DNA from: Fulvia fulva
Lineage: Eukaryota > Ascomycota > Dothideomycetes > Mycosphaerellales > Mycosphaerellaceae
Direction of reading: 5' to 3'
DNA: 64,000 nt
Assembly (NCBI RefSeq): GCF_020509005.1
Contig: NC_063014.1
Coordinates: 3,348,001-3,412,000 of the forward strand
In this document: positions 4,864 through 63,070 of the stretch, piece after piece
Numbering within the stretch: position 1 is the stretch's first letter
How the letters are laid out: every line of letters begins with the position of its first letter
Notes under the pieces: model-generated
Told to the model about the DNA's origin: nothing
What the model saw: only the letters and a program-made list of their open reading frames with translations
The model's database searches: none
Translations under genes and position numbers: made by a program

Positions 4864-5058
4864 CTACTATTATAGTCTCCCTATAGAGTATATAGAAGGT
4901 AGGGACAGAAGAGCCTTAGAGTACTTAGAAGTCGTTAAGAAGTGAAAGTCTAGCTTAGTATATAAGCGCTAAGAATTATATACCCCGTAATATTTACTAC
5001 GGGGAGGATTTACGAATAATCTCTATATAAGGCGAAAGATTTACAACTCTTATATATC
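4864..5058 (+). repeat. Gypsy-1 3' LTR (right boundary uncertain)
   Basis: Non-coding AT-rich sequence directly after the polypurine tract, RIP-mutated like the rest of Gypsy-1. The second LTR lies outside the window, so the length cannot be fixed by comparison. The right boundary is set only by the candidate LINE-A target duplication at 5059-5065; the LTR may have continued past the LINE-A insertion. It contains a perfect 7-bp stem (CCCCGTA at 4983-4989 with TACGGGG at 4998-5004, 8-base loop). Confidence 0.5.
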
Positions 5059-5065
5059 ATTATAG

Positions 5066-5282
5066 ATTGACTAGGACGAGGACCATTCAATCGATAGCCC
5101 TTATCAAGACGAGCAATCTACTCAAGCAGTAGCGACCCGCCTGCGCTGGCGGCGGCGCAATTGTGATACAAAAAAAAACCCCAAAACCGAGGTCCCCTTC
5201 CCCTGAAGGCAGACCCTAGAATTGCGGAGTTGCGGAGGACAACTGCCCAATTAGGAAGCGCGACCCCGAACAACAGCGAAGG
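5066..5282 (+). promoter_or_regulatory. LINE-A 5' UTR with probable internal promoter
   Basis: Non-coding leader of the intact LINE. It contains a GC-rich segment around 5138-5160 and an A run at 5169-5177 just before ORF1. Full-length LINEs need an internal promoter here. No specific core element can be assigned from sequence alone. Confidence 0.4.
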
Positions 5283-6632
5283 ATGGCAACCAACGAGAGC
5301 CATAGCCTTGCGAACATTCTGCACCAAGAGTCAAACCGGGGAACAAACCAAGAAAAAACCCAGGACACAAGCCAAGGCCCACTATACAGAAAGCAGAGGC
5401 CAACGACAAACAACACAGCGTGGACGACCCTATATACGGAGGCGGAGAACTTACTAGGGGATGACGAACACCCAGCCCGGGCATATAAGAACACCATAGC
5501 ACAGCTACTAGGAGCGCTAAAAGCGCTATCATACCAAATCCCGAAGACAATCCAACAAGTAACACAGAAGGCAGCCCAGAAACCAACTACATGGGCAACA
5601 GTAGCAGCAGGCAAGAATCAACCCCCTCCGAAGGAAAGTAAGGCGGTACGCCTATACATTACTGATCCGGCGGAGAAACAAGAAATCGCAGCCCTAACAA
5701 GCAAGGAGATTGTCGACAGAATCGGCCAAAAGGAGGTAGTTGGGGCGAGGGTAGAAGCAACAGGCGTAGTAAGACTCTTTACCGCACAAGAGTCTGATAG
5801 ACGAAAGCTGGAGACCTATAAGGAGTGGACTACTAAAGTCGCGAAGTCGGCACGAGTCTCCCACCAACAGTATACCGTCATCGCCCACGGGGTCCCTAGG
5901 ACATTCAAGGTCGAAGACCTTCCCCACCTCCAAGTACAGAACCAGAACACCTCCCCAGGAGTACGACTAACGAAGGCGGCATGGCTGCACAAGACAGTAG
6001 ACCGAGAAAAGACGCATTCATCGCTTATTATTTGGGTAGAGACAGCGGAACAAGCTAACCAGATATTAGACAATGGGCTATTCTGGAACTGCGAGAGAAT
6101 GGACACGGAGATCCATCAGAGCAGCCACAGGGTACTACAATGCTTCCAATGCCAACAGTACGGTCACATAGCCTCAAAATGCGGGGAGAAGACCCCAAGG
6201 TGTCCTCACTGCGCAGGCCCACACCAGGGAAGGGAATGCCCAAAAAAGGAGAGCAGGTGCGCATGCTGCGGCAGAAGGCACCCAGCGTATTCAAGCCAAT
6301 GCCCGGCTAGAATAGCAGCACAAGAACGAGCGAGACAAGCAAGGATCTCTACACCAGCTAGGTACCCCCAACGACAACAGGAGGGACCTACCGTGTACAA
6401 GGGCTTCGAGCCGAGCAAAAGGAAGAGGGCAGAAGAGACGAACAAGGGAACCCAACCGCAAACGCATCCACCTCCCGGTCGGCCTCGACACCTTGACCGG
6501 GCAGCCAACGAACTAGGCCAAATGCGAATCTTTGGGGCGCCCCAGCGGCCCCAGGGCCAGCCGGACAGCGAGATACAGGCTCAGGAGACACAGCAGGTCA
6601 GCACGGAAATGGACCTCACGGATAACGAATGA
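5283..6632 (+). CDS. LINE-A ORF1: Gag-like RNA-binding protein with three zinc knuckles
   Basis: An intact 449-codon ORF. LINE ORF1 proteins bind element RNA and form the ribonucleoprotein that is reverse transcribed. Residues 1-280 are polar and basic with no fold I can name. Three Cys/His knuckles follow: C287-X2-C290-X4-H295-X4-C300, C307-X2-C310-X3-H314-X4-C319, and a cluster at C326/C328/C329/H333/C340. The tail is Pro/Gln/Arg-rich. The ATG at 5283 is the first in frame after the leader. Its TGA (6630-6632) overlaps the ORF2 ATG (6629) as ATGA, which suggests coupled translation. Degraded homologues of this ORF occur in LINE-B, C, D and E in this window. Host control is probably by RIP or silencing, but this copy shows no RIP. 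Confidence 0.92.
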   Translation: MATNESHSLANILHQESNRGTNQEKTQDTSQGPLYRKQRPTTNNTAWTTLYTEAENLLGDDEHPARAYKNTIAQLLGALKALSYQIPKTIQQVTQKAAQKPTTWATVAAGKNQPPPKESKAVRLYITDPAEKQEIAALTSKEIVDRIGQKEVVGARVEATGVVRLFTAQESDRRKLETYKEWTTKVAKSARVSHQQYTVIAHGVPRTFKVEDLPHLQVQNQNTSPGVRLTKAAWLHKTVDREKTHSSLIIWVETAEQANQILDNGLFWNCERMDTEIHQSSHRVLQCFQCQQYGHIASKCGEKTPRCPHCAGPHQGRECPKKESRCACCGRRHPAYSSQCPARIAAQERARQARISTPARYPQRQQEGPTVYKGFEPSKRKRAEETNKGTQPQTHPPPGRPRHLDRAANELGQMRIFGAPQRPQGQPDSEIQAQETQQVSTEMDLTDNE

Positions 6633-9600
6633 TACTATACGACGACATCACTATCGTACAGTACAACGTAAACAAAAGTAGGGACAAGGTCCAGCGCCAC
6701 TTTCTACAAGAGCTAGACCCGCTACGGCACCACGTTATTGCGGTACAGGAACCATGGATCAACCCCTACGTAGGACTCCCAGCCACTTGTAATGACCGGA
6801 GATACCACACCGTAATCGCGGGCCAACGAGGCGTCATCCCGAGGACATGTATATACGTAAGCAAGACTATAGACCTTGAGTCGTGGAAGGTTATACTACC
6901 GCAGCAGGGCAACCTAGGAGACATAACATCAATCCAGATCGACACGACACAAGGCCCTATCCAGATCCATAACGTTTACAACCCGCCACCGCGGGGTCGG
7001 ACGAGTAGGGAACTAGGAACCCTCGCCCACCTAGAGCGGACCCTAAGCCAAGACACGAAGCAAGTACTCCTCGGCGACTTCAACCTCCACCACCCACAGT
7101 GGGGACTCGAATTCACTCCCCCGCACGCATTTCTAGGGGGGAAGCTACTGGACATAACCGCACGCTACGGAATGGCCTTAGTAACACCAAAGGGAACAGA
7201 GACGTGGAAGGCCCGTACTAGTGCAAGCACGATCGACCTATGCTTTCTATCACGAGAACTTGAAGAGAGACTAGTCCAATGCCGACCGAACTACGCGCTA
7301 GAAGCCTCCTCAGACCATATCCCTATCCAAACGACGCTAGGGGTGAAGGCGATAGAGGAGCCAGCAAACGAACCACGCCGTAACTGGAAGAAGGCACGCT
7401 GGGACGACATAAGAGGCTTCCTAATAGCGAACCTACCACAGCATAGAGAACTCGAGACGACAGCTCAGCTAGATCAAGCAGCGGAACAGATTACCTCGGT
7501 CATATGGCAAGCAGCGGAACAATACACGCCGTTACTCCGGCCCTCAACGCAGCAGAAGGCCTTCTGGACCCCTGAATGCTCTACGAAGGTAAGGGAGGCT
7601 AGAAGGGCAAGGCGACAGTGGACGAAGGAGCACACCCAAGAGACGTGGGAGCAATACTGCCACGCGACACAAGAGAAGAAGGCACAGATAAGACGCGATA
7701 AGCTGCAGGACTGGAGAGCGACGATCGGGCTCGTTACAGAAAACCCGGAACAGATGTGGAGACTTGCTAAATGGGCACGACTACCTGAAGAGCAACAAGC
7801 CCCTCACTTCCCCCCAATCGTAGACCGCGAAGGGATTGCCCAGGCTACGCCCCGGGGCAAGGCAAAAGCGTTAGCCGACCATTTCTTTTCGACGCAAGTA
7901 GAGGCAGACCTTACGGACATCGACCCGAGCACATACCCGGAACCCCTGGACATGGATTGGGCGGTTAGCCCTAACACAGTAACAGGAGTCATAAGTAAGC
8001 TAAAGGGACGAAAAGCCCCAGGCCCAGACAGGATACCAAACGTACTGCTAAAAGAGTGTAGAGAAGAGATCGCGCCGAGCCTTGCAAACCTATTTACCGC
8101 GTGCCTACGGCTAGGGTATCACCCGAAGCCGTACAGAGAGTCTATGACAGTAGTGCTACGCAAGCCACAGAAGGAAGACTATACTCAGCCCAAGTCGTAC
8201 AGACCAATAGCACTTCTAAATACGATAGGGAAGGTCCTAGAAAAGATAGTAGCCCAGAGACTTACGCAGCTTGCCGAGGACAACCACGTACTCCCAGCAA
8301 CACAGATGGGGGGAAGAAGCCAGCGATCGACACTAATAGCAATGGAGCTAATTACGGAGCAAATCCAGACCCTCTGGCACTACGGCAGGAACCGAGCGGC
8401 GTCCTTACTATCCCTCGACATCGCAGGGGCCTTCGACAACGTCTCACACCAAAGGCTAATACATATCCTACAGCAGAAAGGCATCCCCCAGTGGGCAACG
8501 TCGTTCGTCTTCTCCTTTCTCCAGGAACGGACGACATACCTAGTCCTAGGAAGGTACACGTCCGACCCGGTGAAGGCAGAGACTGGAATACCTCAGGGAT
8601 CTACTCTCTCCCCTATCCTGTTTCTAATATTTATGTCGGATCTAATCCCCCTACTCACCTCTCCGCAAACCTCAGCATCGGGGTTCGTAGACGATACAAA
8701 CATCCTAGCCTGGTCAGACTCGACAGAAGAGAACTGTCGCCTCCTTGAAGATAGGCACAAGAAATGCGAGGAGTGGGCAAAGAAGCATGGTGCCCGGTTC
8801 GCCCCTGAAAAGTACCAACTTATACACTTCAGTAAAGCGAGAACACACCATAATATGAAGGCGGCGGTAAGAATCCAAGGCTACGAGACCAAGCCATCAG
8901 CGGAGCTACGAGTACTAGGGATCTGGCTCGACCCGAAGCTAAGCTGGAATGTACAGATTAAGAAAGCCCAGAGTCGAGCGCAAGTCAATGAAGCCTCGAT
9001 AAAGAGGCTTACGGCATCTACATGGGGAGCAACATTCGACAAGGCAAGAGTAATGTATAAGGCGATCGTCAGACCAGCTATGTTGTACGGGGCACAGATT
9101 TGGGGAACAGGAGGCGCAGGCAAGCCGATCCCGAAACGGATAGAGCAACCCCTAAACAGGACACAGGCAGGCAACCTACGTAGGGTACTAGGCGCATACA
9201 AGACAACGTCAACAAGCACGGTAGAAATGGAGACAGGAATACCACCAATCGGCCAGTACATCCGGGGAATGAGAATTCAATACGCGGCAAAGACGACAGG
9301 TTACCTAGCACAAACCACGATCCAGGAGGCAAAGAATAAGATAGAAAGCCGCTACCGGAGAGGGGCAGGATATAGGACAAGCCAAAAAGAGGATGACCTT
9401 ACGACCTTTACGGCCGTACAGACAAGCACCGAATGGCTAGCACGAAAGGAGGAGGAGCGTAGGACTCGCCAGGCCGGCGGGAGCAAGGCTAAGACCCAAA
9501 ACCTAGCGGAACAGATAGCGAGCTGCCTATGGGAGCAGGACTGGAAAAGGAAGCCCCCTAAGACAACAGGCCCGATAGCGCTCCGAGCCTTCCAGAGACA

Positions 9601-9982
9601 CAATTACCAGCTATATAGGGACCTGACAAGGGCCGAAGCAAGCATAGCGATCCAAATCAGGTCCGAACACATTGGATTAAGGGCCTACCTGTTCAGAAGA
9701 CGCGCACTAGACATCTATAGCCCAGCCTGCCAGTGTGGCTACCCATCGCAAAACCCAGAACATATGCTACTACGATGCCCGCAGTGGGCGAGAGGCAGGG
9801 GAAATTGGAGGCACCAAGCGGGAAGGAGAGACTACAAGTCAATTATTAGGGACAAAGGCAACATTCGCCGAATCTCTCGGTGGATACTACAGCAGGGATA
9901 CCTCCAGCAGTTTAGCCTCGCGAGCGAGACGGAGGAGTGGATAGACAAGAGGCGGAAGCGAGGGGGGTTGCAGATAGGGTAG
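6629..9982 (+). CDS. LINE-A ORF2: endonuclease-reverse transcriptase
   Basis: An intact 1117-codon ORF that carries out target-primed reverse transcription. The N-terminal AP-like endonuclease spans about 1-235, with N14 (QYNVNKS), E41 (VQEPWIN), D150/N152 (LLGDFNLHH), D203 (STIDLCF) and D229-H230 (SSDH). The RT spans about 460-760: GRKAPGPDRIPN at 460-471, D597 in SLDIAGAFD, GIPQGSTLSPILF at 653-665, and catalytic FVDD at 686-689 (the common LINE form is YADD/FADD). A C-terminal knuckle lies at C1034-X1-C1036-X8-H1045-X4-C1050. I see no RNase H signature between RT and knuckle. All key residues are present, so the copy may be active. Closest in type to the fungal Tad1 clade. Confidence 0.94.
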   Translation: MILYDDITIVQYNVNKSRDKVQRHFLQELDPLRHHVIAVQEPWINPYVGLPATCNDRRYHTVIAGQRGVIPRTCIYVSKTIDLESWKVILPQQGNLGDITSIQIDTTQGPIQIHNVYNPPPRGRTSRELGTLAHLERTLSQDTKQVLLGDFNLHHPQWGLEFTPPHAFLGGKLLDITARYGMALVTPKGTETWKARTSASTIDLCFLSRELEERLVQCRPNYALEASSDHIPIQTTLGVKAIEEPANEPRRNWKKARWDDIRGFLIANLPQHRELETTAQLDQAAEQITSVIWQAAEQYTPLLRPSTQQKAFWTPECSTKVREARRARRQWTKEHTQETWEQYCHATQEKKAQIRRDKLQDWRATIGLVTENPEQMWRLAKWARLPEEQQAPHFPPIVDREGIAQATPRGKAKALADHFFSTQVEADLTDIDPSTYPEPLDMDWAVSPNTVTGVISKLKGRKAPGPDRIPNVLLKECREEIAPSLANLFTACLRLGYHPKPYRESMTVVLRKPQKEDYTQPKSYRPIALLNTIGKVLEKIVAQRLTQLAEDNHVLPATQMGGRSQRSTLIAMELITEQIQTLWHYGRNRAASLLSLDIAGAFDNVSHQRLIHILQQKGIPQWATSFVFSFLQERTTYLVLGRYTSDPVKAETGIPQGSTLSPILFLIFMSDLIPLLTSPQTSASGFVDDTNILAWSDSTEENCRLLEDRHKKCEEWAKKHGARFAPEKYQLIHFSKARTHHNMKAAVRIQGYETKPSAELRVLGIWLDPKLSWNVQIKKAQSRAQVNEASIKRLTASTWGATFDKARVMYKAIVRPAMLYGAQIWGTGGAGKPIPKRIEQPLNRTQAGNLRRVLGAYKTTSTSTVEMETGIPPIGQYIRGMRIQYAAKTTGYLAQTTIQEAKNKIESRYRRGAGYRTSQKEDDLTTFTAVQTSTEWLARKEEERRTRQAGGSKAKTQNLAEQIASCLWEQDWKRKPPKTTGPIALRAFQRHNYQLYRDLTRAEASIAIQIRSEHIGLRAYLFRRRALDIYSPACQCGYPSQNPEHMLLRCPQWARGRGNWRHQAGRRDYKSIIRDKGNIRRISRWILQQGYLQQFSLASETEEWIDKRRKRGGLQIG

Positions 9983-10187
9983 TCATCAGGGCAGGCCCAT
10001 GACACTAGCGTACCCCTAACAAGGGAAATTTAAGACGACAACGAGGAGGAAAAGACAGGCGGGAAGGAGGAGGGGTTTTCACCAACACGGTTTCCCCTCT
10101 ATATATACAAAAACAAGATAGCATAGCTGCATAGGCCAAAGGGCACTACAACAGCTTAATGAAATATCTATCTATCTATCTATCTAT
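9983..10187 (+). other. LINE-A 3' UTR and (TATC)n tail
   Basis: A 3' UTR of about 175 bp ends in a microsatellite tail of TATC units (about 10163-10187). Reverse-complement versions of the UTR and tail appear at 49294 and 55162 (GATAGATA followed by TTCATTAAGC). This shows that the 3' end is a fixed feature of the family. Confidence 0.8.
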
Positions 10188-11936: not shown

Positions 11937-12118
11937 ACCTATACGTATATAGATAGATAGATTTGTCATTCCCCTGTTCTAGGACCCTATCCGGCCTATA
12001 TAGGTATATATCTATTGTTATGTACAAAGGGAAACCCGAATAGGTGAAAACCCTTCCCGCCCCCGACTACTCCTTATCTAGTTTAGCTTTCCCTCTGAAC
12101 GTACGTAGTCTATATCAC

Positions 12119-15050
12119 TACCCCGTTAGCCCCCGCTCCTAGCCGGTCTCGTCGCGCTACGTCGTGTCCTCTCTTCCTATACTGCTCCTACTAGGCGGTA
12201 CTATTCTAGCTAGCCCTTCTCTAGTATCTAGTTCGTAATGCGCCGTAGGTCCTTAGCGTTGTTAAGAAGTGCCCTAATCGTCCGGTTCCTCGCCTTTACT
12301 ATCTACTCCCCCCTTCCTAGCGACTACCTCGGATAGACGAGGAGTACGTACCGTACGTTCTAGGAGCGATAGCCGTAGGGGCAGCTAGTATTCGTATATC
12401 CTAGAACCTTCCTCTATAATAGGTACCCCTAGAGGCCGATGTGTTCGCTTCGTAGTTAGGTTACTATGCTACTCTATACCCTCGTAAGGCGGTAGTAGAT
12501 AAGCTTCGGGGGGTACTTGACCGCGGATTTTGTAGCTAACTATTCCTTAGGTTGTCCCGCTAGCTAAGGGCGTCTACTATGCCCTACAACCTAGTTGTTC
12601 TACCTCTCTTTCTATAGTTGCTCTACAAACGATTTCTTACCTTCCTATTATGTTGCTAGCTGTTCGTCCCTTACCCGGTAGTTCGGCTCGTTTCCGGGTC
12701 GAATGCCCCTATACGCTAGTACTGATTCGCGGGCCCTTACGACTATACTAGCGATGACCTTCTATACTAGGTACTGTGCCGACTTGCCTAAGTAGGAGGT
12801 CCGTAGTCCCTAGATGTATAGGTCGATTGGCGGTATAGCGGTCTCGTACTTAAGTATCCTCGTTAGTGTCGACTTATATGCCCCGGTGACCTTCCTTAGG
12901 CATTGGTTTTAGATCTTCGCTAGCGGCGCGACGAGTCCCTTCGATAGGCAGGCCCTCTCGCCTAAGGACTACACTTGGCTACTATAGGTAAGGACTGGCC
13001 GTACAATAGCCGTATATAGAAGCCGTTACTACCGGAAGTCCGCCCCCTATATAGACGTAGTGAGCCTCTAGTATGATGCTATATTCTGTTTAGCTTTCCG
13101 TAATATTGCCTATACGTACTTCCTCTACCGTAGCGCCGGGTCTACCTATAGTCCGAGGATCCTAAGCTAATTTGCCGGGTTAGTCGTATAACCCTATATC
13201 TAGATAGAAGCTTATATATTGTGGAACCGTGGCCGGCGCGTAAAGTGTATTAGATTGTACTTTTCTAGGGCAAACCGAGCCCCGTGCCTCCTAGCCTAGT
13301 CCTCGTAGATCTTGTGCTTCTCTTCTAGTAGCCTATAGTTCTCCTTAGTCGAGGAAGACTACGCTAGGATGTTCGTATCGTCTACGAAGCCGCTCGTAGC
13401 GGTGTTCTAGGATTCTAGGGCTAGGAGTAGCGTCGCTATAAAGAAGAGGAACAGAATAGGTACTAGCGTTAAGCCTTACGGGATTCTAGTATAGACTACT
13501 TGAAATGGGCTTCTATACTAGCCGACTAGGATCGACGTACTACGGTTTTAGAGGTAGGACCGTACGAAGTTAACAAGCCACTTAGGGAGTCCCTTCGACC
13601 TTAGGATGTAGAGTAGCCGCGGGTATAACACGTAGTCGAAGGCTCCCGATATGTCTAGGCTAAGTAAGGAAGCCACCTTGTCCCTATTCTTATACTAGAT
13701 AGCCTTTACCTAAGAGGTGATAAGTTCTATCGCGGATAGCGTCGATCGCTATAGGCGCGCACCTATCTAGGTGTCCGGGAGTAGGGAGTGTTCCTCTACC
13801 GCCTCGGAGAGTCTCGTTATAACTAGCTTCTTAAGCGCCTTCCTAAGAGTGTTAAGGAGCGCAATTAGGCGGTACGACTTCACCTACGTATAGTCTTCCT
13901 TCTACGGCTTACGTAGGACTACTGTCGTCGATTGTTTAAAAGCTATCGGGTGGTACCCGGTCTGTAGGTAGGCGTTAAAGATCGCTATAACTACTAGGGC
14001 TAGTTGATCTCTACACTTCTTTAGTAGCTCGTTTAGGATCCTATCCGGCCCCGGGGCTTTCTTCGCCGGCAACTTCCTTAGTATAGCGGCAACTTCTCCC
14101 TCGGACACCTCCTATTAGACCGCGATACTAGGGGCTAGGGGAGTAGAGCTGTTTATATCGCTTAGATTAGCCTCGACTAGGGGCGGGAAGAACTTGCTAG
14201 CTAGTAGACGCGCCTTGGCCTCGGGGTCGCTAACCGGGCCACTAGGCGATTGTAGCGCTAGGATAGAGAAGGAGGGGCCCTATGTAGGGTCCTGTCGGGC
14301 CCATTTCGCTAGCTTCCACATCCTCTCTAGCTTGCCGGCGATTTCTTCTACTGTAGCCCTCTAGCCGACTACTTTCTCCCTTCGTATTATAGCTTTCTTC
14401 TATTAGTATGCCTCCCTATATACGTTCTAAGCCTCCTCGCTATAGCTGCTCGTCTATACCCGGCGGGCTCTCCTTGCTTCTCTTACTACCGTAGTGTACT
14501 CCGGCGTCTAGTATAGTTTAGACTATGTCGTTAGTTAGGTAAGCGGAACGTGAAGTGAGGTCGCTTTTCTTATTTCGTCTATCAACCCCTAAACTACTTC
14601 GTCTATCTCGTCTTTACTGTTGTATTACTACTACGCGATCTAGACTAGCCTCTTAGAGTCATCGAGGTACGCCTAGATATTGGCCTAGTAGGCCTTTCCC
14701 TAGTTTAGCTTAGGGGTTCTCGCTAGTGTGCGTTATATCTATATCGTAATAGAGGTCCTGACTAGCATATAGTCTAACGACGCCTCGAGTTCATGTTCGA
14801 TCCTATAGTAGGTTACCGTGTAGTAGTAGCTATCTAAGATCTAGGAGAGGTCGATCGTGCCTTAGAGTCCCCCTCTCTTCTAGGTGCCCAGGTCCTTCGG
14901 GGTATTAAGGGCAATTGCGTTGCTCGCTATCAAGTCGAGTACTTCGTCGGCTATAGGGTACGGCTGTATAAGGCTTTCCTAGGAAGGGTAGTATATATTA
15001 AAGTCTCCTACTACGATGTAGTACCCTTGTCTCTTAAGCGTACTGTCTAG
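12119..15050 (-). pseudogene. LINE-B ORF2 3' part in chimera 1 (EN-RT, RIP-degraded)
   Basis: Minus-strand LINE ORF2 lacking its first part, of the same family as 16949-19873. An open 68-codon stretch at 14108-13902 retains the RT entry motif (KKAPGPDRILNELLKKC, TTVVLRKP). The FVDDTNI relic lies near 13370-13390. The 5' break is within the endonuclease, just before the GDFN motif, at the junction with the module. RIP stops are spread throughout. The position of the terminal stop is approximate. Confidence 0.8.
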
Positions 15051-16128
15051 TAAGGAAGGAATCGTATTTAGTAAGCTAGCTACGAGATAAGGTAACAAGT
15101 CTTAACCGCGCTTTCCTACTTATCTAGCACTACCGTGTAGCCTCGTTTCGAGAGGTTAGCCCGGAGTAAAAGCTTCCCTCTACGCCCTCCCTCCCTGTTT
15201 GCTCCTTAAGCCAATATCCACCTCTATAGGCCTAAGCCCTTTAGTGCTCTCTATTGACCGACATGCGCATCCGTCCTCTCGGGCTATATAGACAGTATCA
15301 GCCGTCGCTACTAGTATATACTACGCCCTAGGTTTTGACGCCCTTCGCGTTACCGTAGCCTATCTCTAGAAAGCGGCCGTCTATACCTCGTAGGTTTGCT
15401 CGGGGCATACACTACGCCGGGCAGCGTACTCCTTACGTTTCTACCTACTAACTAATATGAAGTTCCTTATTACCCTACCCTCGATCCTCCCCGATCACCG
15501 AACTAATCCACTTATATTATACGTCTTTTCCCCGTCCTAATAGCCGTCTTTTCCTTGCTTAGGCTATCGTCTTTTCCTCGTCGTAATCTACTATATTAGA
15601 CTAGGTACGTTGTGAAGTAGGATAGGCAGTGCCTTAGGCAAAACCCTCGTTCCTATACCGGGTGTTTAATAGGCCCTTATAGGCTTCGTCGCGTATCTAC
15701 CTGCCTACCGTATTGCCCGCTAGTAAACACTAGATTGTTTCGTAGTCCGCTCGACGCCGTTATATAGTCCGCTTAGTTGTTGTTCTATAGTCCGCTCGTC
15801 TAATGTTCGTCGCTTAGCCCGCTCGGTTTACGGTCTCCGGAGGTAAAAATTCTGTACTTATACTAGAGGTGTCCTATCGAGCGTATAGGCCACGGTTCCG
15901 CGCCCTTCTTACACGTAGAAAGAAGAGGGACTCGCTCCCGATACGAGTACACGCTCGTCGGATAGTTTTTATACCCGTTTTGCTAGTAGTCCTCTATTCG
16001 CCGCGGCTTCGCCTACGCTACGCGCCCGTCGCGCCTACGACGCTCTAGCGTAAGAATACTTGGCTCTCTCGTAGCTAGACGAGAGGTTCGTAGCCGACAC
16101 TACGTATAGGTGATTCTCGTCGTCGACC
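15051..16128 (-). repeat. 1078-bp non-coding chimera module, copy 1
   Basis: It is nearly the same as 52679-53756, of identical length (1078 bp) with the same ends, differing mostly by C/T and G/A changes. No coding frame is visible on either strand. Internal features include three 23-bp tandem units beginning CGTCTTTTCC (15522, 15545, 15568), four copies of TAGYCCGCT at 15743, 15765, 15788 and 15815, and a perfect 7-bp stem CTCTCGT/ACGAGAG with a 6-base loop near 16064-16083, close to its sense 5' end. In both places it sits at the 5' side of a truncated LINE. I do not recognise its source; no tRNA-like or Pol III box is evident. Confidence 0.85.
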
Positions 16129-16140
16129 TATACGTATATA

Positions 16141-42090: not shown

Positions 42091-42737
42091 CGGTATCGAC
42101 AATTATTTCCTCTATAGTATCCTATATCCTACTACCTTATACGTTCTAGTCTACGTCTATCGGCTATATACTAAAGGGGAGCCGGGCCTAGTTAGATTCC
42201 CTCGCCGTAGCTAGTAGAGTACGTAGCCTCTCGTACGCCCTAGGTTACGTATCCTTTATATCGTTCTTAGCCCTAGGGCGCTTATACCCGACCGCCGCTA
42301 GCTAGTTCCGGTATAGGCTAGCCTTACGGTCGCCGTAGAATCTTAGGGCGACGGTTCTATTTATAATTGCCTTATTTTTCGCTAGTTTCCGCTATAGGCA
42401 TTCCGCGCTATACGATAGGTAATACCCCGGACAGTTCGCGTACCGTCTCGTAGCGGATATATAGTCCCTAGATATATAGTCTCCTATATAGTTCGAGTAG
42501 GCCTACTTGTTTATATACGTATAGGTTTAGTGTCTATACTGTTAGCATTTGAAGCATTAGAGGACACGAAAGGATAAGGAGTGCTTTTCTACTATCTTAA
42601 GGCTATATTGCTAGATTAGGCCTTATTCTATCGCTAGATCCGCCGCTTTCGGGTCTTATAGCTATACTATTAGCGCCGAGGCCTTCTTGCCTTCTAGCCA
42701 TTTCCTATAGAGCTAAGTCGCCTTCTAGATTAGAGAG
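42091..42737 (-). pseudogene. LINE-B copy II ORF1, 3' part
   Basis: Contains the zinc-knuckle relic (minus strand near 42535-42570) in one piece, confirming that the ORF1 halves at 11936 and 16141 in copy I belong together. It is interrupted at 42733-42737 (GAGAG) by copia-1 and continues at 48182. Confidence 0.75.
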
Positions 42738-49279: not shown

Positions 49280-49483
49280 GCTAAGATTATATAGATAGAT
49301 ATTTCATTAAGCTGTTGTAGTGCCCTTTGGCCTATGCAGCTATGCTATCTTGTTTTCGTATATATAGAGGGGAAACCGTGTTAGTGAAAACCCCTCCTCC
49401 TTCCCGCCTGTCTTTTCCTCCTAGTTGTTGTCTTAATTTTCCCTTGTTAGGGGTACGCTAGTGTCATAGGCCTGCCCTGATAA

Positions 49484-52400
49484 CTACCCTATCTACCACC
49501 CCCTAGCTTCCGCCTCTTATCTATCCACTCCTCCGTCTCGCTAGCGAGGCTAAACTGCTAGAGGTATCCCTACTATAGTATCTACCGAGAGATTCGGCGA
49601 ATGTTGCCTTTGTCCCTAATAATTGACTTGTAGTCTCTCCTTCCCGCTTAGTGCCTCCAATTTCCCCTACCTCTCGCCTACTACGGGCATCGTAGTAGTA
49701 TATGTCCTAGGTTTTGCGATAGGTAGCCACACTAGTAGGCTGGGCTATAGATGTCTAGTACGCGTCTTCTAAACAGGTAGGCCCTTAACCTAATGTGTTC
49801 GCACCTGATTTGGATCGCTATGCTTACCTCGGCCCTTATCAGGTCCCTATATAGCTAGTAATTGTGTCTCTAGAAGGCTCGGAGCGCTATCGGGCCTATT
49901 GTCTTAGGGGGCTTCCTTTTCTAGTCCTGCTCCTATAGGCAGCTCGCTATCTGTTCCGCTAGGCTTTAGGTCTTAGCCTTGCTCCCGCCGGCCTAGCGAG
50001 TCCTACGCTCCTCCTCTTTTCGTACTAGCCATTCGGTGCTTGTCTATATAGCCGCAAAGGTAGTAAGGTCATCCTCTTTTTGGCTTGTCCTATGTCCGGC
50101 CCCTCTCCGGTAGTAGCTTTCTATCTTATTCTTTGCCTCCTAGATCGTAGTTTGTACTAGGTAACCTGTCGTCCTTACCGCGTATTGAATTCTTATTCCC
50201 CGGATATACTGGCCGATTAGTAGTGTTCCTGTCTCTATTTCTACCGTGCTTATTAACGTTATCTTGTATACGCCTAGTACCCTACGTAGGTTGCCTACCT
50301 ATGTCCTATTTAGGGGTTGCTCTATCCGTTTCGGGATCGGCTTGCCTACGCCTCCTGTTCCCTAAATCTATACCCCGTATAGTATAGCTAGTCTAACGAT
50401 CGCCTTATACATTACTCTTACCTTATCGAATGTTGCTCCCTATATAGATGCCGTAAGTCTCTTTATCGAGGCTTCGTTAACTTGTGCTCGACTCTAGGCT
50501 TTCTTAACCTATACATTCTAGCTTAGCTTCGGGTCGAGCCAGATCCCTAGTACTCGTAGCTCCGCTAATAGCTTTGTCTCGTAGCCTTGGATTCTTACCA
50601 CCGCCTTTATATTATAGTATGTTCTCGCTTTACTAAAGTATATAAGTTGGTACTTTTCAGGGGCGAACCGGGCACTATGCTTCTTTGCCCACTCCTCGCA
50701 TTTCTTGTGCCTATCTTCAAGGAGGCGACAGTTCTCTTCTGTCGAGTCTGACCAGGCTAGGATGTTTGTATCGTCTACGAACCCCGATACTAAGGTTTAC
50801 GGAGAGGTGAGTAGGGGGATTAGATCAGACATAAATATTAGAAACAGGATAGGGGAGAGAGTAGATCCCTAAGGTATTCTAGTCTCTGCCTTTACCGGGT
50901 CGGACGTGTACCTTCCTAGGACTAGGTATGTCGTCCGTTCCTAGAGAAAGGAGTAGACGAACGTCGTTACCTACTAGGGGATGCCTTTCTACTATAGGAT
51001 ATATATTAGCCTTTGGTATAAGACGTTATCGAAGGCTCCTACGATGTCGAGGGATAGTAAGGACGCCGCTCGGTTCCTACCGTAGTACTAGAGGGTCTGA
51101 ATTTGCTCCGTAATTAGCTCTATTACTGTTAGTATCGATCGCTAGCTTCTTCCCCCTATCTATGTTGCTAGGAGTACGTAGTTGTCCTCGGCTAGCTACG
51201 TAAGTCTCTAGGCTACTATCTTTTCTAGGACCTTCCCTATCGTGTTTAGAAGTGCGATTGGTCTGTACGACTTGGGCTAAGTATAGTCCTCCTTCTATAG
51301 CTTACGTAGTACTACTGTCATAGACTCTCTATACGGCTTCGGGTGATACCCTAGCCGTAGGCACGCGGTAAACAGGTTTACTAGGCTCGGCGCGATCTCT
51401 TCTCTATACTCTTTTAGTAGTATGTTTAGTATCCTGTCTAGGCCTAGGGCTTTCCGTCCTTTTAGCTTACTTATAACTCCTATTACTATGTTAGAGCTAA
51501 CCGCCTAATCTATATCTAGGGGTTCCGGGTGTATACTCGGGTCGATATCCGTAAGGTCTACCTCTACTTACGTCGAAAAGAAATGGTCGGCTAATGCTTT
51601 TGCCTTGCCCCGGGGCGTAGCCTAGGCAATCCCTTCGCGGTCTACGATTAGGGGGAAGTGAGGGGTTTGCTGCTCTTTAGGTAGTCGTGCCTATTTAGTA
51701 AGTCTCTATATCTATTCCGGGTTTTCTATAACGAGCCCGATCGTCGCTCTCTAGTCCTATAGCTTGTCGCGTCTTATCTATAACTTCTTCTCTTGTGTCG
51801 CGCGATAGTATTGCTCCTACGTCTCTTAGGTATGCTCCTTCGTCTACTGTCGCCTTGCCCTTCTAGCCTCCCTTACCTTCGTAGAGTATTTAGGGGTCTA
51901 GAAGGCCTTCTACTACGTTAAGGGCCGGAGTAACGGCGTATATTATTCCGCTACTTACTATATAACCGAGGTAATCTGTTCCGCTACTTGATCTAGCTAA
52001 GCTATCGTCTCGAGTTCTCTATACTATAGTAGGTTCGCTATTAGGAAGCCTCTTATATCGTCCTAGCGTGCCTTCTTCTAGTTACGGCGTAGTTCGCTTA
52101 CTAGCTCCTCTATCGCCTTCACCCCTAGCGTCGTTTAGATAGGGATATAGTCTAAGGAGGCTTCTAGCGCGTAGTTCGGTCGGCATTAGACTAGTCTCTC
52201 TTCAAGTTCTCGTAATAGAAAGTATAGGTCGATCGTGCTTATACTAGTACGGGCCTTCTACGTCTCTATTCCCTTTAGTATTACTAAGGCCATTCCGTAG
52301 CGTACGGTTATGTCTAGTAGCTTCCCCCCTAGAAACGCGTACGGGGGAGTGAATTCGAGTCCCTACTATAGGTAGTAGAGGTTAAAGTCGCCGAGGAGTA

Positions 52401-52678
52401 CTTACTTCGTGTCTTAGCTTAGGGTCCGCTCTAGGTAGGCGAGGGTTCCTAGTTCCCTACTCGTCCGACCCCGCGGTAGCGGGTTATAAACGTTATAGAT
52501 CTAGATAGTACCTTGTGTCGTGTCGATCTAGATTGATGTTATGTCTCCTAGGTTGCCCTACTACGGTAGTATAACCTTCTACGACTCAAGGTCTATAGTC
52601 TTGCTTACGTATATATATGTCCTCGGGATGACGCCTCGTTAGCCCGCGATTACGGTGTAGTATCTCCGGTCATTACAA
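49484..52678 (-). pseudogene. LINE-A ORF2 (truncated) in chimera 2
   Basis: Minus-strand copy of LINE-A ORF2 lacking about the first 53 codons. It aligns with 6787-9982; the differences seen are mainly C/T and G/A. RIP is patchy: the part encoding the FVDDTNI region (about 50640-50780) is almost unchanged, while other parts have lost most CpA. The stop codon is at 49484-49486. Confidence 0.87.
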
Positions 52679-53756
52679 CAAGGAAGGAATCGTATTTAGT
52701 AAGCTAGCTACGAGATAAGGTAATAAGTCTTAACCGCGCTTTCCTACTTATCTAGTACTACCGTATAGCCTCGTTTCGAGAGGTTAGCCCGGAGCAAAAG
52801 CTTCCCTCTACGCCCTCCCTCCCTATTTACTCCTTAAGCCAATATCCACCTCTATAGGCCTAAGCCCTTTAGTGCTCTCTATTGACCGACATACGTATCC
52901 GTCCTCTCGGGCTATATAGACAGTATTAGCCGTCGCTACTAGTGTACACTACGCCCTAGGTTTTAACGCCCTTCGCGTTACCGTAGCCTATCTCTAGAAA
53001 GCGGCCGTCTATACCTCGTAGGTTTGCTCGGGGCACACACTACGCCGGGCAGCGTACTCCTTACGTTTCTACCTACTAACTAATATAAAGTTCCTTATTA
53101 CCCTACCCTCGATCCTCCCCGATTATAGAACTAATCTACTTATATTATACGTCTTTTCCCCGTCCTAATAGCCGTCTTTTCCTTGCTTAGGCTATCGTCT
53201 TTTCCTCGTCGTAATCTACTATATTAGACTAGGTACGTTGTGTAGCGGGATAGGTAGTGCCTTAGGCAAAACCCTCGTTCCTATACCGGGTGTTTAATAG
53301 GCCCTTATAGGCTTCGTCGCGTGTCTACCTACCTACCGCATTGCCCGCTAGTAAACACTAGATTGTTTCGTAGTCCGCTCGACGCCGTTATATAGTCCGC
53401 TTAGTTGTTGTTCTATAGTCCGCTCGTCTAATGTTCGTCGCTTAGCCCGCTCGGTTTACGGCCTCCGGAGGTGAAAATTCTATACTTATACTAGAGGTGT
53501 CCTATCGAGCGTATAGGCCACGGTTCCGCGCCCTTCTTATACGTAGAAAGAAGAGGGACTCGCTCCCGATACGAGTACACGCTCGTCGGATAGTTTTCAT
53601 ACCCGTTTTACTAGTAGTCCTCTATTCGCCGGGGCTTCGCCTACGTTACGCGCCCGTCGCGCCTACGACGCTCTAGCGTAAGAATACTTGGCTCTCTCGT
53701 AGCTAGACGAGAGGTTCGTAGCCGACACTACGTATAGGTGATTCTCGTCGTCGACC
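52679..53756 (-). repeat. 1078-bp non-coding chimera module, copy 2
   Basis: Same length and boundaries as 15051-16128 (constant offset 37628), with the same 23-bp tandem units (from 53150) and TAGYCCGCT repeats. Differences are mostly transitions, with at least one transversion. No coding frame. Confidence 0.87.
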
Positions 53757-53770
53757 GCTAAGATTATATA

Positions 53771-55148
53771 GTAGGATACTAAGATCTCGTAACTTAAGAT
53801 ATAAGCCCGGCTTACCGCCTTACTAAGTAAGTAAGACCGCCCGCCTACTTTCTCTAAGTAGTTACGACCCTAGTAATAGCCGTAGTAGTAGGAATAGTAG
53901 ACTACTAGTCTAGAAGGATTTCTATAAGCCGGTACCCGTCGTTCTTAGACTCTAGTAGGTAGCGGCTATTAGGCCCGTAGCTAGAACCGTACTACCCGCG
54001 CCGGTTCTCTCGTACTCTTAGTAGCACGTACTAATAATACTACGATATTCGCCGCTTAAACTAACTAACGTTTCTCCTATCCTAAAGAGTTCGATAACTT
54101 AGGCGAGCTCTCCTATATCGACTAGAAAGAGAGCTATAAGGACTCTATCGCGGTACGATATACTGTATAAACACCTTACCTTAATGTCTTTAACTACGTT
54201 AAGCGTTATACTCTTAGTACCCCTAGGGATATTATCCGTACGGCTATTAAGAACGACGAATAGGTAAGCCTCGAGGATATATAGGACGAGTTAGACGATA
54301 ACTTCGGTAAGAATCCTCGAGACATTAAGCTTAAGGCTAGACGCGACCTATACTAGCTAAAGTAGAAGTACGGCTAGGAGTTTAGTTAATATATCGTCGA
54401 ATACCGCCGCCTTAGCGCTAAGGCCGGTAAGCCTATAGTGTCGTACGAGCTATAGATTAGCCTAAACGAGTTCTAGATAAAGAAGATAGAGGACTACTAG
54501 CTTATAGACCCCGTTAGCCAGTTCATTCGTATCGCTAAAGATAAGGAAGAGGTATATAATACCGTAAAGAGTATATATAGTAAGAGGAATAAGGATAAGG
54601 ATATCTAGTAAGGCGGTAACGGGCGTCGTAGTAGTTAAGGACAAGGCTAATAGGGCTTTAGATAATAGAGTGCTAGTATAGTACTACGAGCCGCGCCGCC
54701 TACTATAAATAATACGCTTACGGTCTCTACGCGTACCTAGAACGCTAGCCCGGCCGTACGCCTTATCCCCTAGTATTATACTATACTACCTAAGCTTATC
54801 GACGAACTCCGCGACTAGCTACGCTAGTAAGGCCGCTATTTCCGCTATCGTAAACCTAGATATACCGGCCTCGACCCCGTATATATTCTTTATAACTCCC
54901 GCGGTAAGTAGCGTACCGGCGACGTCGACCGCGAGATACCTATCGCTCTTAACGCTATAACCGACGCGCTAGCCCTCTAGATCGAAGTACTACCCGTTTA
55001 GGGAAATACCTAGCTCCTTAGTACCGTCGCGCTAAAGGAGTAATATACGAATCTACGAATTATAAACACGAAGAACAAGACTACGAGATATATACCTAAG
55101 AGGAAGAATACCTATATATAGTAATAGCTAAGGGTGACACCTATACGG
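53771..55148 (+). pseudogene. Gypsy-3 gag, piece 3 (main Gag domain and knuckle)
   Basis: Typical retrotransposon-gag core near 54080-54520 (LGELSYIDQKESYKDSIAVR, LYQLKQKYGQEFSQYIVEYR, LSAKAGKP). A knuckle relic reads YFRYRKPRYTG near 54838, Cys and His changed to Tyr. RIP stops throughout. It ends at the LINE-A fragment. Confidence 0.75.
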
Positions 55149-59470: not shown

Positions 59471-59668
59471 ATAATATATATATATATTATTTATTAAGCT
59501 GTTGTAGTACCTCCTAGCCTATATAGCTGTTCTACGTACTTCTGTCTTTCGAAGGGGAAACCGCTCGCGGTAAAAACCCCTCTCCTCTCCTATACTACTA
59601 TTGTCCGTTATTTGCCTTCCCGCTTTCCTTATAGAGGGTATACTAGTGTCATAGGCCTGCCCTAATGA

Positions 59669-62600
59669 CTACCTTGTCTACATCCCCTTAGTCTCCCTCC
59701 TCTTCTCTATCTACTCTTCCGTCTCGTTAGCTAGTTTAAACTAGGTAAGGTATCCTTATCTTAGGACCTAACGTACTATCCTCTATACGTCGTACTTGTT
59801 TATAACGATCGACTAGTAGTCGCGTCTAGCTACTCTCGCTCTCTATATACTCCGCCCTTCTACCTACTATAGGTACCGTACGACTATATATTCCGGGTTC
59901 TACGACGGGTAGCTATACTTATACGCTAGGTTATCTATATCTAGAACGTTCCTCCTATATAAGTAAGCCCGAAGCCCGATATATTCGGACCGGATTTAGA
60001 TTATTACGCTTACTTCTGCCCTTATAAGGTCGCGGTATAGGAGGTAGTTATATCTCTAGAAGGTTCGTAGGGCTAGGAGGCCTGTTCTCGCTAGCGGGTT
60101 ACTGTTCTATTCCTATTCCTATAGGTAGCCGGCTACCTGCTCTACGAGGCTCTAGGACTTTCCCTAGTTCCCCTTCCTTTCCCGGGTTCTTCGTCCCTCC
60201 TCCTCCCTCGCTAGCTACTCCGGCGTTCCTTATATTTTCCTAAAAACCCGTAAGTCGTCCCGCTTCTAACTCCTCCTTACGTATAGTCCTATATATAGCC
60301 GGCTATATCTCTATACGATTCGTACTGTCTTATTGTAGATAGTTTACTATACTAGGTACCCTATCGTCTTCGCCGCGTATTAGATCCTTATCCCTTAGAT
60401 ATAGTAACGGATAGGTAGTGTCCCGGTCTCTATCTCGGCTACTCTCGTCGGTATAGTCTTATACGCTCCGAGAATTCTTCTTAAGTTACCTACTTAGGTT
60501 CGATTAAGAGGCTGTTCGATCCGTCGTAGTACTAGCTTATCGACTCCCCCCGTACCCTAGATTTATACCCCGTAAAGTATCGCTAGTCGAACGATTACTT
60601 TATATATTATTCTTGCTTTGTCAAAGGTCGCCCCCTACGTTGACTTAGTAAGACGTGTTATTGATACCTCGTTTACTTATGCTCTATTCTAGGCCTTCTT
60701 AATCTATAGGTTCTAGCTTAGCTTCGGGTCTAGCTAGATTCCTAGTACTCGGAGTTTAGGAGAGGGCTTCGTCTCGTATCCCTAGATTATTATAGTTACC
60801 TATATATTGTAGTAGGTCCTCGCTTTACTAAAGTGGATCAGCTAGTATTTCTCTAGGGTAAAAAGGGCGCCGTAGCGTCTAGCCTAGTCCTCGTATACTC
60901 TATGTCTCTCCGTAAGTAGTCTATAGTTTTCCTCCGTTATTACGGACTAGGCTAGGATGTTTATATCGTCTACGAAGCCTAACGCCGAAGTCTAAGAGGA
61001 CGTAAGTAAGGGGATGAGGTCGGCTATAAAGATTAGGAATAGGATCGGAGATAGCGTAGATCCTTAGGGGATTCCGGTCTCTACGTATACCCTATCGGAT
61101 TTATACCTCCCGAGGACTATTCTCGTAGTCCTCTCTTTAAGGAAGAAGTATATAAATTTCGTAGCCTATACGGGGACTCCTTTCTGTCGGAGTATATAGA
61201 GTAGTCTTTCGTAGGAGACGTTATCGAATACTCCGGAGATGTCTAGGGGTAGTAGCGATACTGTTCTATTCCGTCTATAGTACTAGAGGGTTTAGATCTG
61301 TTCGGTTATTAGTTCTATTACCGTAAGGGTTAAGCGGTTACTTCTCCCTCCTATCTATATCTCCGGGAGGATGTTGTTCTCCTCGACTAGTTTTATAAGT
61401 CTCTAGGCTACTATCTTCTCTAGGATCTTCCCTACTATATTTAGGAGCGTAATCGGTCTATATAACTTGAGCCTATTATAGTCTTCCTTCTATAGCTTCT
61501 AGATAACTACTATTAGGGAGTCTCTATACAGCTTCGGATAGTAGTCTTTCCGTAGATAAGTAGTAAAGAGCTTAGCTAGGCTCGGGGCGATTTCCTCTTT
61601 ATATTCCTTTAGTAGGAGGTTTAGGATTTTGTCGGGTCCTAGGGCCTTTCTTCCCCTAAGCTGTCCTATTACGGCCTTAACCTCGCCTAGCTAGACTATC
61701 TAGTATATATCTAGTAGTTCCGGGTACGACGTGCCTACTATATCCGTTAGGTCTATATCGACTTATATTAAGAAGAAGTAGTCCGTAAACGCCTTCGCTT
61801 TTACCTCCGGCGTTAACCTTAGCGTTCCCGTTATATCGACTATAGGCGGGAAGTAAGGCGTCTTCTCTGTCCCTCTAGCTCTCGCCTACCTCGCTAGTTA
61901 CTATATCTAGTTAGGATTCTCTATTACGAGTCCTACCGTCGTTCTCTAGTCTAGCTATTTATCCCGACGTATCTAGGCTTTCTTAGCTTAGCTAGCCCTT
62001 TAGTATACGTCCTATATTGCTTATATATACTCCTTCGTCCACTCTTGTCTAGCCCTCCTCGCCTCCTTTACCCTTTCCGCGTACGCCGGGGTCTAGAATA
62101 GCTTCTGTCTTTAAGAAGGTCGAATGTAGGGTATATACTAACGAGCTACCTCCTATACGACTATCGTTATCCGTTCGGCTTCTTTATCGAGCTCGGCTTC
62201 TTATTCTACTTCTATTCCTACTTCTAGTCCCGTATTTACCCTATTATCGTATAGTCGTACCGCTAGTTCACCTCGGATTTCTTCTTACGGGGCCTTCTTC
62301 TAGTTTAGGCGTAGCTCCGCTATAGGTTCCTCCTCGACTCCTACCTCGATTATTGTCTAGATCGGGATGTAGTCTAATCCTATATCGAGTAAGAGGTTCG
62401 GGCGGTACTTGTCTAGTCTCGTTACTAGCTCTCTCGAGAGGAAGTATAGGTCAATCGTACTTACGCTTAATCTCGCCTTCTACGTCTCTATACCCTTTAG
62501 GGTCGCTAGTTCTATATCGCGGCTCGCGGTGATTTCTAGTAACTTGCCTCCTAGGTATACGTATAGGAGGGTAAAGTCTAGACCCTATTACGGGTAGTAA

Positions 62601-63070
62601 AGGTTGAAGTCGCCTACTAGGACTTAGTATATATCCCCTTATTTAAGTATCCGGTCTAGCGTAGCTAGGGTTCCTAGGTCTCTACTCGTTCGTCCTTATA
62701 TAGGAGGGTTATAGACGTTATAGATTTGGACGGTTCCCTAGCCTATTACTATTTCGATTGTCGTTATCCCCCCCTAGTAGCCCTCCCGCTATAGTACGAC
62801 CTTCTATACTTCTATACTAATAGCCTTACTTACGTAGGTATATATTCTTAGGGTATGTCCTATACCCCTACTAATTACCGTATAGTATCGTTAGTCGTTA
62901 TAGGTTACCGGTTTGCTTATATATAGGTTAGTCTAAGGTTCCTATAGCGCTATAACGTAGTGCTTTTAGTAGTCGAGTTCTTATAGGAAGTAGAGTTAGA
63001 CCTTATCTTTGCTTTTATTAACGTTATACTATATAATAGTAAGGTTGTCCTATACTACTATTACTAGCTA
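59669..63070 (-). pseudogene. LINE-E ORF2 (endonuclease-RT, RIP-degraded)
   Basis: The minus strand begins YNVNKSKDKV near 63040 and continues with GTLATLDRILK and VLVGDFNLYYP near 62610. The RT reads RKALGPDKIL near 61640 and GFVDDINIL near 60960-60980. It ends with a stop at 59669-59671 in sequence very like the LINE-A end. It is closely related to LINE-A but diverged beyond RIP. Stops throughout. Confidence 0.8.

Follow-up and report, generated by a model that had tools for sequence, protein, structure and literature searches.

Repeated joining of one noncoding RNA to truncated LINEs of several families in a fungal genome

The genome of Cladosporium fulvum (Fulvia fulva), the fungus of tomato leaf mould, carries hundreds of copies of one 1078-nt noncoding module, which is found at the 5' end of truncated LINEs. 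It is well supported that this joining happened independently many times, with the RNAs of at least six LINE families. We reached this view from two chimeras that lie in one window, a stretch of 64,000 nucleotides (C3:3348001-3412000), and from searches of the whole genome (67,169,167 bases in 14 contigs). The available passages of the paper on the Race 5 assembly describe 67.17 Mb in 14 telomere-to-telomere chromosomes, Chr14 measuring 460 kb, with the LINE Tad1 making up 16.3% of the genome and RIP demonstrated (PMC9453070).

Two chimeras in one window

Read along the minus strand, chimera 2 consists of a target duplication, the module, a LINE-A part that runs to its ATCT tail, and the second copy of the duplication (Table 1). 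The LINE-A tail was compared with the tails of other copies, and the module length of 1078 nt includes the final G. With the reference ORF2 starting at 6629, LINE-A is cut near ORF2 codon 53, so that a module followed by LINE-A cut at about codon 54, as given in the preliminary description, is confirmed. The duplication had been put at 14 bp; the repeat is indeed exact, but its true length is 15 bp. Joining the flanks with a single copy of the duplication yields an empty site of 263 bases, which was matched at 94-98% over 262 or 263 of the 263 bases in the 40 host-repeat copies scored of 57 candidates. Because this site is intact in host-repeat copies, chimera 2 is a single insertion.

Table 1. 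Features of the two chimeras and of the LINE-A reference copy, in window positions
Feature	Position	Strand	Remarks
Long LINE-A reference copy, ends approximate	5004..10183	+	ORF1 5283-6632 and ORF2 6629-9982, both open
Chimera 1: module 16128->15051 and LINE-B 15050->11952	11937..16140	-	Target duplications 11937-11951 and 16126-16140
Chimera 2, left target-site duplication GCTAAGATTATATAG	49280..49294	.	Exact repeat of 53757-53771
Chimera 2, 5'-truncated LINE-A read 52678->49295, 3' tail AATGAAATATCTATC at left end	49295..52678	-	92% identity to 6787-10178 of the plus-strand LINE-A copy
Chimera 2, module/LINE-A junction: module ...CCTTCCTTG, then TTGTAATGACC	52678..52679	-	L019 has the identical breakpoint
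Chimera 2, 1078-nt noncoding module read 53756->52679, 5' and 3' ends complete	52679..53756	-	
Chimera 2, right target-site duplication	53757..53771	.	Exact repeat of 49280-49294

Chimera 1 joins the same module to LINE-B. Its direct repeat measures at most 15 bp, three bases of which overlap the module start, and its empty site is found within the window as well, near position 42520 in reverse orientation (ungapped alignment of 527 bases, 95.4%). Of 1078 sites, 34 distinguish the two modules, and 31 of these differences are transitions. When projected from alignments, the LINE-B start falls at about LINE-A codon 131, roughly 78 codons beyond the cut of chimera 2, in agreement with the distance of about 80 codons proposed earlier.

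The long LINE-A copy has frames of 449 and 1117 aa within window positions 5283-9982, with endonuclease and reverse transcriptase domains; a target duplication was looked for around this copy (5004..10183) and not found. Over the same 5283-9982 the CA/TG content is near normal, and a RIP pattern is seen in chimera 2 and the nearby LINE-B.

Copy number and character of the module

A 26-base pattern for the 3' end of the module matched 614 places genome-wide, and a 24-base pattern for its 5' end matched 588, with up to two mismatches tolerated, so that more diverged copies escape these counts. Both reversed-pattern controls gave 0, which for the 614 matches excludes chance, and the near equality of the two counts indicates that few modules are truncated. 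On the module side the joint is exact, the final base being G in 40 of 41 young junctions.

The module contains no long open reading frame, the longest stop-to-stop stretch being 79 codons in sense and 101 on the opposite strand. Searches of the module against Rfam and for tRNAs gave no match. We dropped the idea of a structured RNA, given that all 48 dinucleotide shuffles of the un-RIPped module folded more stably than the module itself (z = +1.9); eight 200-base pieces gave z values between -0.85 and +1.42.

No solo copy of the module was recognised among the 90 of 614 junctions examined, and no source gene of the module RNA was found in these or among the best 40 of 656 candidates. The latter 40 are un-RIPped modules taken as the top-scoring, hence nonrandom, part of the candidates, where an active source would be expected to rank; all of them sit on LINE-type sequence, in one case (L077) with a partial module between. 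Heavily RIPed and RIP-free copies of the module coexist, so capture was probably at work both before the latest action of RIP on new copies and after it.

Partners of the module

We read 95 junctions and retained 90 as distinct after dropping repeats (W2=L001, L031=L051, L038=L052, L040=L054, L043=L055). In the junctions examined the module stands at the 5' end in sense orientation, and in 88 of the 90 the sequence that follows is of LINE type, from at least six families. LINE-A accounts for 39, LINE-B for 28, family D for 8, family F for 5, family H for 2 and family C for 1, with five other LINE-like partners (one of them, at the second module of L028, assigned from a 30-residue match alone), another module in one case (L077) and one partner unassigned (L041). 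A genome-wide count of the module with its 3' partners classified, and a comparison of LINEs with other partners, had been proposed as checks on the first description; the count gives 614 3' ends, and the partners classified at the 90 junctions are 88 of LINE type, one module and one unassigned. Families A, B, C, D and F are 64-75% similar where they can be aligned. Family H aligned to none of these and encodes a LINE-type protein (E 2e-37).

The association can also be seen from the side of the LINEs, whose 3'-end patterns occur at 640 places for LINE-A and 1389 for LINE-B. On C1 below 10.05 Mb, a module lies on the same strand within 6.5 kb upstream of at least 34 of 89 exact LINE-A 3' ends, as against 3 of 89 when the strands are exchanged. 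For LINE-B the excess is weak (at least 9 of 100 versus 3 of 100, below 5.03 Mb of C1 and among the matches listed). Among 46 LINE-A copies with an un-RIPped 3' end in the first 10 Mb of C1, a class chosen by a 35-base pattern among the matches listed and including some copies 90-93% similar to the reference, at least 19 are capped by a module, 17 have a 5'-proximal LINE-A marker and 10 have neither. The module places used on C1 were those with at most one mismatch among the matches listed, which makes the capped fractions lower bounds. The ten copies without module or marker include the truncated copies L133, L121 (about 92 LINE-A bases) and L114/L115, and also L123, whose 5' part is inverted.

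A tripartite element, L077 (C3:1270700-1274200), carries a full module, a module from position 297 and LINE-B, an order that suggests two successive joins. In L026, two modules less than 4 kb apart are followed by identical LINE-B bases past the joint.

A short motif at the breakpoints

The LINE side of the joint was placed on un-RIPped references for 33 of the 41 young junctions; the other eight were dropped for want of a reference (five) or because they fell at or before the reference start (three). These 33 junctions represent 25 distinct breakpoints. The base at which the LINE restarts (+1) is C at 24 of the 25, the lost base just before it (0) is C or T at all 25, and the base that precedes this lost pyrimidine is A or G at 24. 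The resulting motif, R-Y^C, is present at 24 of 25 distinct breaks over a background of 6.2-6.7% of LINE-A and LINE-B positions (p ~4e-27 against 7%). The exception is the A-C^T break that chimera 2 has in common with L019. The inner join of L077 is also at A-C^C.

Uncapped truncations were sought in 20 LINE-A and 20 LINE-B copies, 15 and 18 of which extend past the sequence examined, and three sites with a target duplication were obtained after leaving out L121, L123 and L135, which have a 5' break and no duplication found. One of the three, L147, starts at A-C^C; L133 does so provided that three shared bases are assigned to its duplication; and the start of L114/L115 does not fit the motif.

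Independent joins or amplified chimeras

A set of 25 un-RIPped modules varies at 22 sites; seven of these modules are free of variants, and their partners are LINE-A, LINE-B and family D. Haplotypes 3-8 sites apart occur at five breakpoints used more than once (LINE-A 7327 and 8371; LINE-B 1745, 1245 and 2090 in L054 numbering), and the mean distance between modules is 3.6 within breakpoints (9 pairs) and 3.7 between them (291 pairs). Different module haplotypes at one breakpoint imply that joins recur independently. The preliminary description had explained its two chimeras either by separate captures or by a partner RNA that is used again and again because LINE RTs prefer it; both are borne out by the 90 distinct junctions, by the number of distinct young breakpoints and by the haplotypes that differ within breakpoints. 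Gene conversion among modules could have mixed haplotypes, though it could not create new breakpoints and duplications.

In an alternative account, a small number of master chimeras arose by single joining events and spread by transposing whole, and the copies reflect amplification. This would explain breakpoints that recur, such as LINE-A 8412, 7944 and 7327. It would also fit L051 and L093, which have the LINE-A 7944 breakpoint and a five-site haplotype in common at different target sites, and from which we gather that some chimeras may re-transpose as units. Of the three copies at LINE-A 8412, L071 and L072 have the same 5' flank and represent one duplicated locus, and L061 is one site away. 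As an account of the whole set, amplification is nevertheless very unlikely, given the 25 distinct breakpoints in 33 young junctions, the different haplotypes at five shared breakpoints, with mean distances of 3.6 within and 3.7 between, and the scarcity of truncated modules. Still less probable is a reading in which the module belongs natively at the 5' end of a LINE, with the chimeras as recombinants or deletions of that region: the sense orientation and 5' position of the module would be expected, but its partners come from at least six families and are entered at many internal sites, and the 17 of 46 C1 LINE-A copies that have the 5' marker have no listed module before their 3' end. Finally, chimera 2 might have been derived from chimera 1 through gene conversion of the module, which had been named as the result that would overturn the earlier interpretation. 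The two modules are 97% alike, yet chimera 2 differs in LINE family and breakpoint, has its own 15-bp duplication, and has an empty site that is intact in the 40 host-repeat copies scored; with family, site, duplication and empty site all its own, an origin by gene conversion is for practical purposes excluded.

How the joint may form

Several points are shown and have to be accommodated: chimera 2 is a single insertion, the module keeps the same ends while its partners and breakpoints are many, the breaks follow a motif, and the joins recur. The joining step itself we infer from DNA. Chimera 2 is very probably the product of LINE-driven retrotransposition of a LINE-A RNA and a separate module RNA. 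The LINE-A RNA would be cut, or its copying halted, at an internal site, preferably R-Y^C, and the 3' end of the separate 1078-nt noncoding RNA would be joined to the broken LINE end. Copying of the joined molecule would proceed as far as the module 5' end, and insertion by target-primed reverse transcription would generate the 15-bp duplication. Perfect target duplications of 12-16 bp beside an (ATCT)n LINE tail are present in six of seven further chimeras with flanks, and in the seventh, L053, no duplication was found in the sequence examined, which is without the LINE tail. Such duplications, together with the LINE tails and empty sites, show LINE-type insertion. Furthermore, fixed module ends combined with variable LINE ends indicate that two RNAs were joined, and a motif that lies partly on bases absent from the product suggests that the cut or the stop in copying precedes the joint.

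For the joining step we favor, at about even confidence, template jumping: the reverse transcriptase would reach the 5' end of a LINE RNA that has been cut, run off it, and continue on the module RNA from its 3' end. That it instead changes templates where it pauses, with the LINE RNA intact, seems unlikely. Ligation of module RNA to cut LINE RNA before reverse transcription, followed by retrotransposition as if it were LINE RNA, is a possibility to be taken seriously, even if we lean somewhat against it. Repair of the fungal tRNA-ligase type offers a possible route for such RNA ligation. The exact joint on the module side would be expected from ligation (G in 40 of 41 young junctions), as would the loss of the R-Y bases if the RNA is cut there and the start of uncapped L147, and of L133 under one reading, at A-C^C. 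On the other hand, ligation alone does not explain why one RNA is chosen so often, and the uncapped sites with a duplication are just three, with L114/L115 off the motif. In the passages available, preligation is discussed for human LINE-1 chimeras in PMC13174262 and PMC8857657; the latter also reports that a non-LTR enzyme can jump between templates in vitro, and the former names both routes.

Comparison with known elements

The closest known counterparts are chimeras of WEIRD and MGL, called MINE, which were reportedly described in Magnaporthe grisea/oryzae by Fudal in 2005. According to the available passages of Gogvadze 2007 (PMC2104539), a MINE consists of a 1113-nt WEIRD RNA and a 5'-truncated MGL, a layout identical to ours, and the claim that the window hints at an undescribed composite retroelement system is not supported in that form. 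Our module-LINE chimeras appear to work like MINE, a likeness of layout that leaves descent from a common sequence aside. Both have a full-length noncoding RNA of about 1.1 kb (1113 nt in MINE, 1078 here) on the 5' side of a truncated LINE in the same orientation. Both have target duplications of 10-20 bp, which we found in six of seven chimeras with flanks and in both window chimeras, and many breakpoints, some of them shared. A tripartite element is known in both, and a solo RNA copy has been found in neither, as far as the 90 junctions and those passages go. The switch motif given for MINE is GCC*(A/U) in the LINE template, and R-Y-C immediately precedes the break at 10 of the 13 distinct sites listed in Table 3 of that paper (PMC2104539). 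The break here (R-Y^C, 24 of 25) thus falls one base earlier than in Magnaporthe (R-Y-C*, 10 of 13), an offset that may be an effect of how the joint is assigned or a real difference. For one published MINE primer, at most 13 of 20 bases match the module, a level that is not informative.

The two systems also differ. The material available on Magnaporthe covers one LINE plus a SINE and 31 MINEs; here there are at least six LINE families, 614 module 3' ends, a telomere-to-telomere assembly and haplotype evidence of independent joins. No comparable element in fungi other than Magnaporthe was found in the literature searched, which left most subscription papers outside, and in the C. fulvum genome passages searched the terms "chimeric" (PMC9453070) and "chimer" (PMC10823647) were absent.

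Outside fungi, the available passages on U6-L1 and other snRNA-LINE chimeras likewise describe a full-length noncoding RNA upstream of a truncated LINE with a target duplication, and report that LINEs of several clades can form them (PMC4476161, PMC13174262). In contrast to U6, a known host RNA with its own genes, the module matched nothing in Rfam, and none of the 90 of 614 junctions examined was recognised as a solo copy. Nor does it belong to a fixed composite of the SVA type, for which the 25 distinct breakpoints in 33 young junctions leave no single internal structure. SINEs are nonautonomous RNAs copied by the LINE machinery. The module resembles them in this respect but has no LINE-like 3' tail: at 89 of 90 junctions, its end CCTTCCTTG is followed by LINE-type sequence or another module.

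Capping of truncated LINEs by a noncoding RNA was thus already known from the rice blast fungus, and occurs here on a larger scale; new are the several LINE families, the hundreds of copies, the haplotype evidence and the fact that no solo source was found in the junctions examined. What was known from one fungus becomes quantitative, with a large share of truncated LINE-A copies bearing one noncoding RNA at a short break motif. Since un-RIPped copies have distinguishable haplotypes, joining events can be counted. Template jumping and RNA ligation can now be tested against each other as the origin of such chimeras, and so can the question of whether WEIRD-like RNAs are host RNAs or a mobile class that survives only by attachment to LINE copies. 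Tentatively, and with slightly less than even confidence, we suggest that the module is a selfish RNA element instead of a host RNA. Having no 3' tail and no independent form of insertion, it would live only as the 5' end of chimeras, be transcribed from them, be trimmed at ...CCUUCCUUG and be joined to the broken 5' ends of RNAs from any of several LINE families, parasitizing failed LINE copies; WEIRD would belong to the same class. For annotation, a module of this kind could end up as an unclassified repeat.

Other LINE copies

Several LINE copies met in the course of the analysis have features of their own. Family C, one of the module partners (L033), is also present in the window at 59474-63057 and is about 65% similar to LINE-A. 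L114/L115 (C1:98905-100550 and 105715-107360) represents a local duplication, in which one truncated LINE-A insertion is repeated at a distance of about 6.8 kb. In L123 (C1:2567179-2568824), a LINE-A with an inverted 5' part lies beside a short LINE-A tail, in a twin-priming-like arrangement. The family D partners are those of L035, L044, L047, L065, L068, L075, L090 and L032; in five of these eight junctions the translations are 99-100% identical over about 179-202 residues to a reverse transcriptase of Stemphylium lycopersici (P0005), which hints at a recent transfer between fungi or at contamination of the record.
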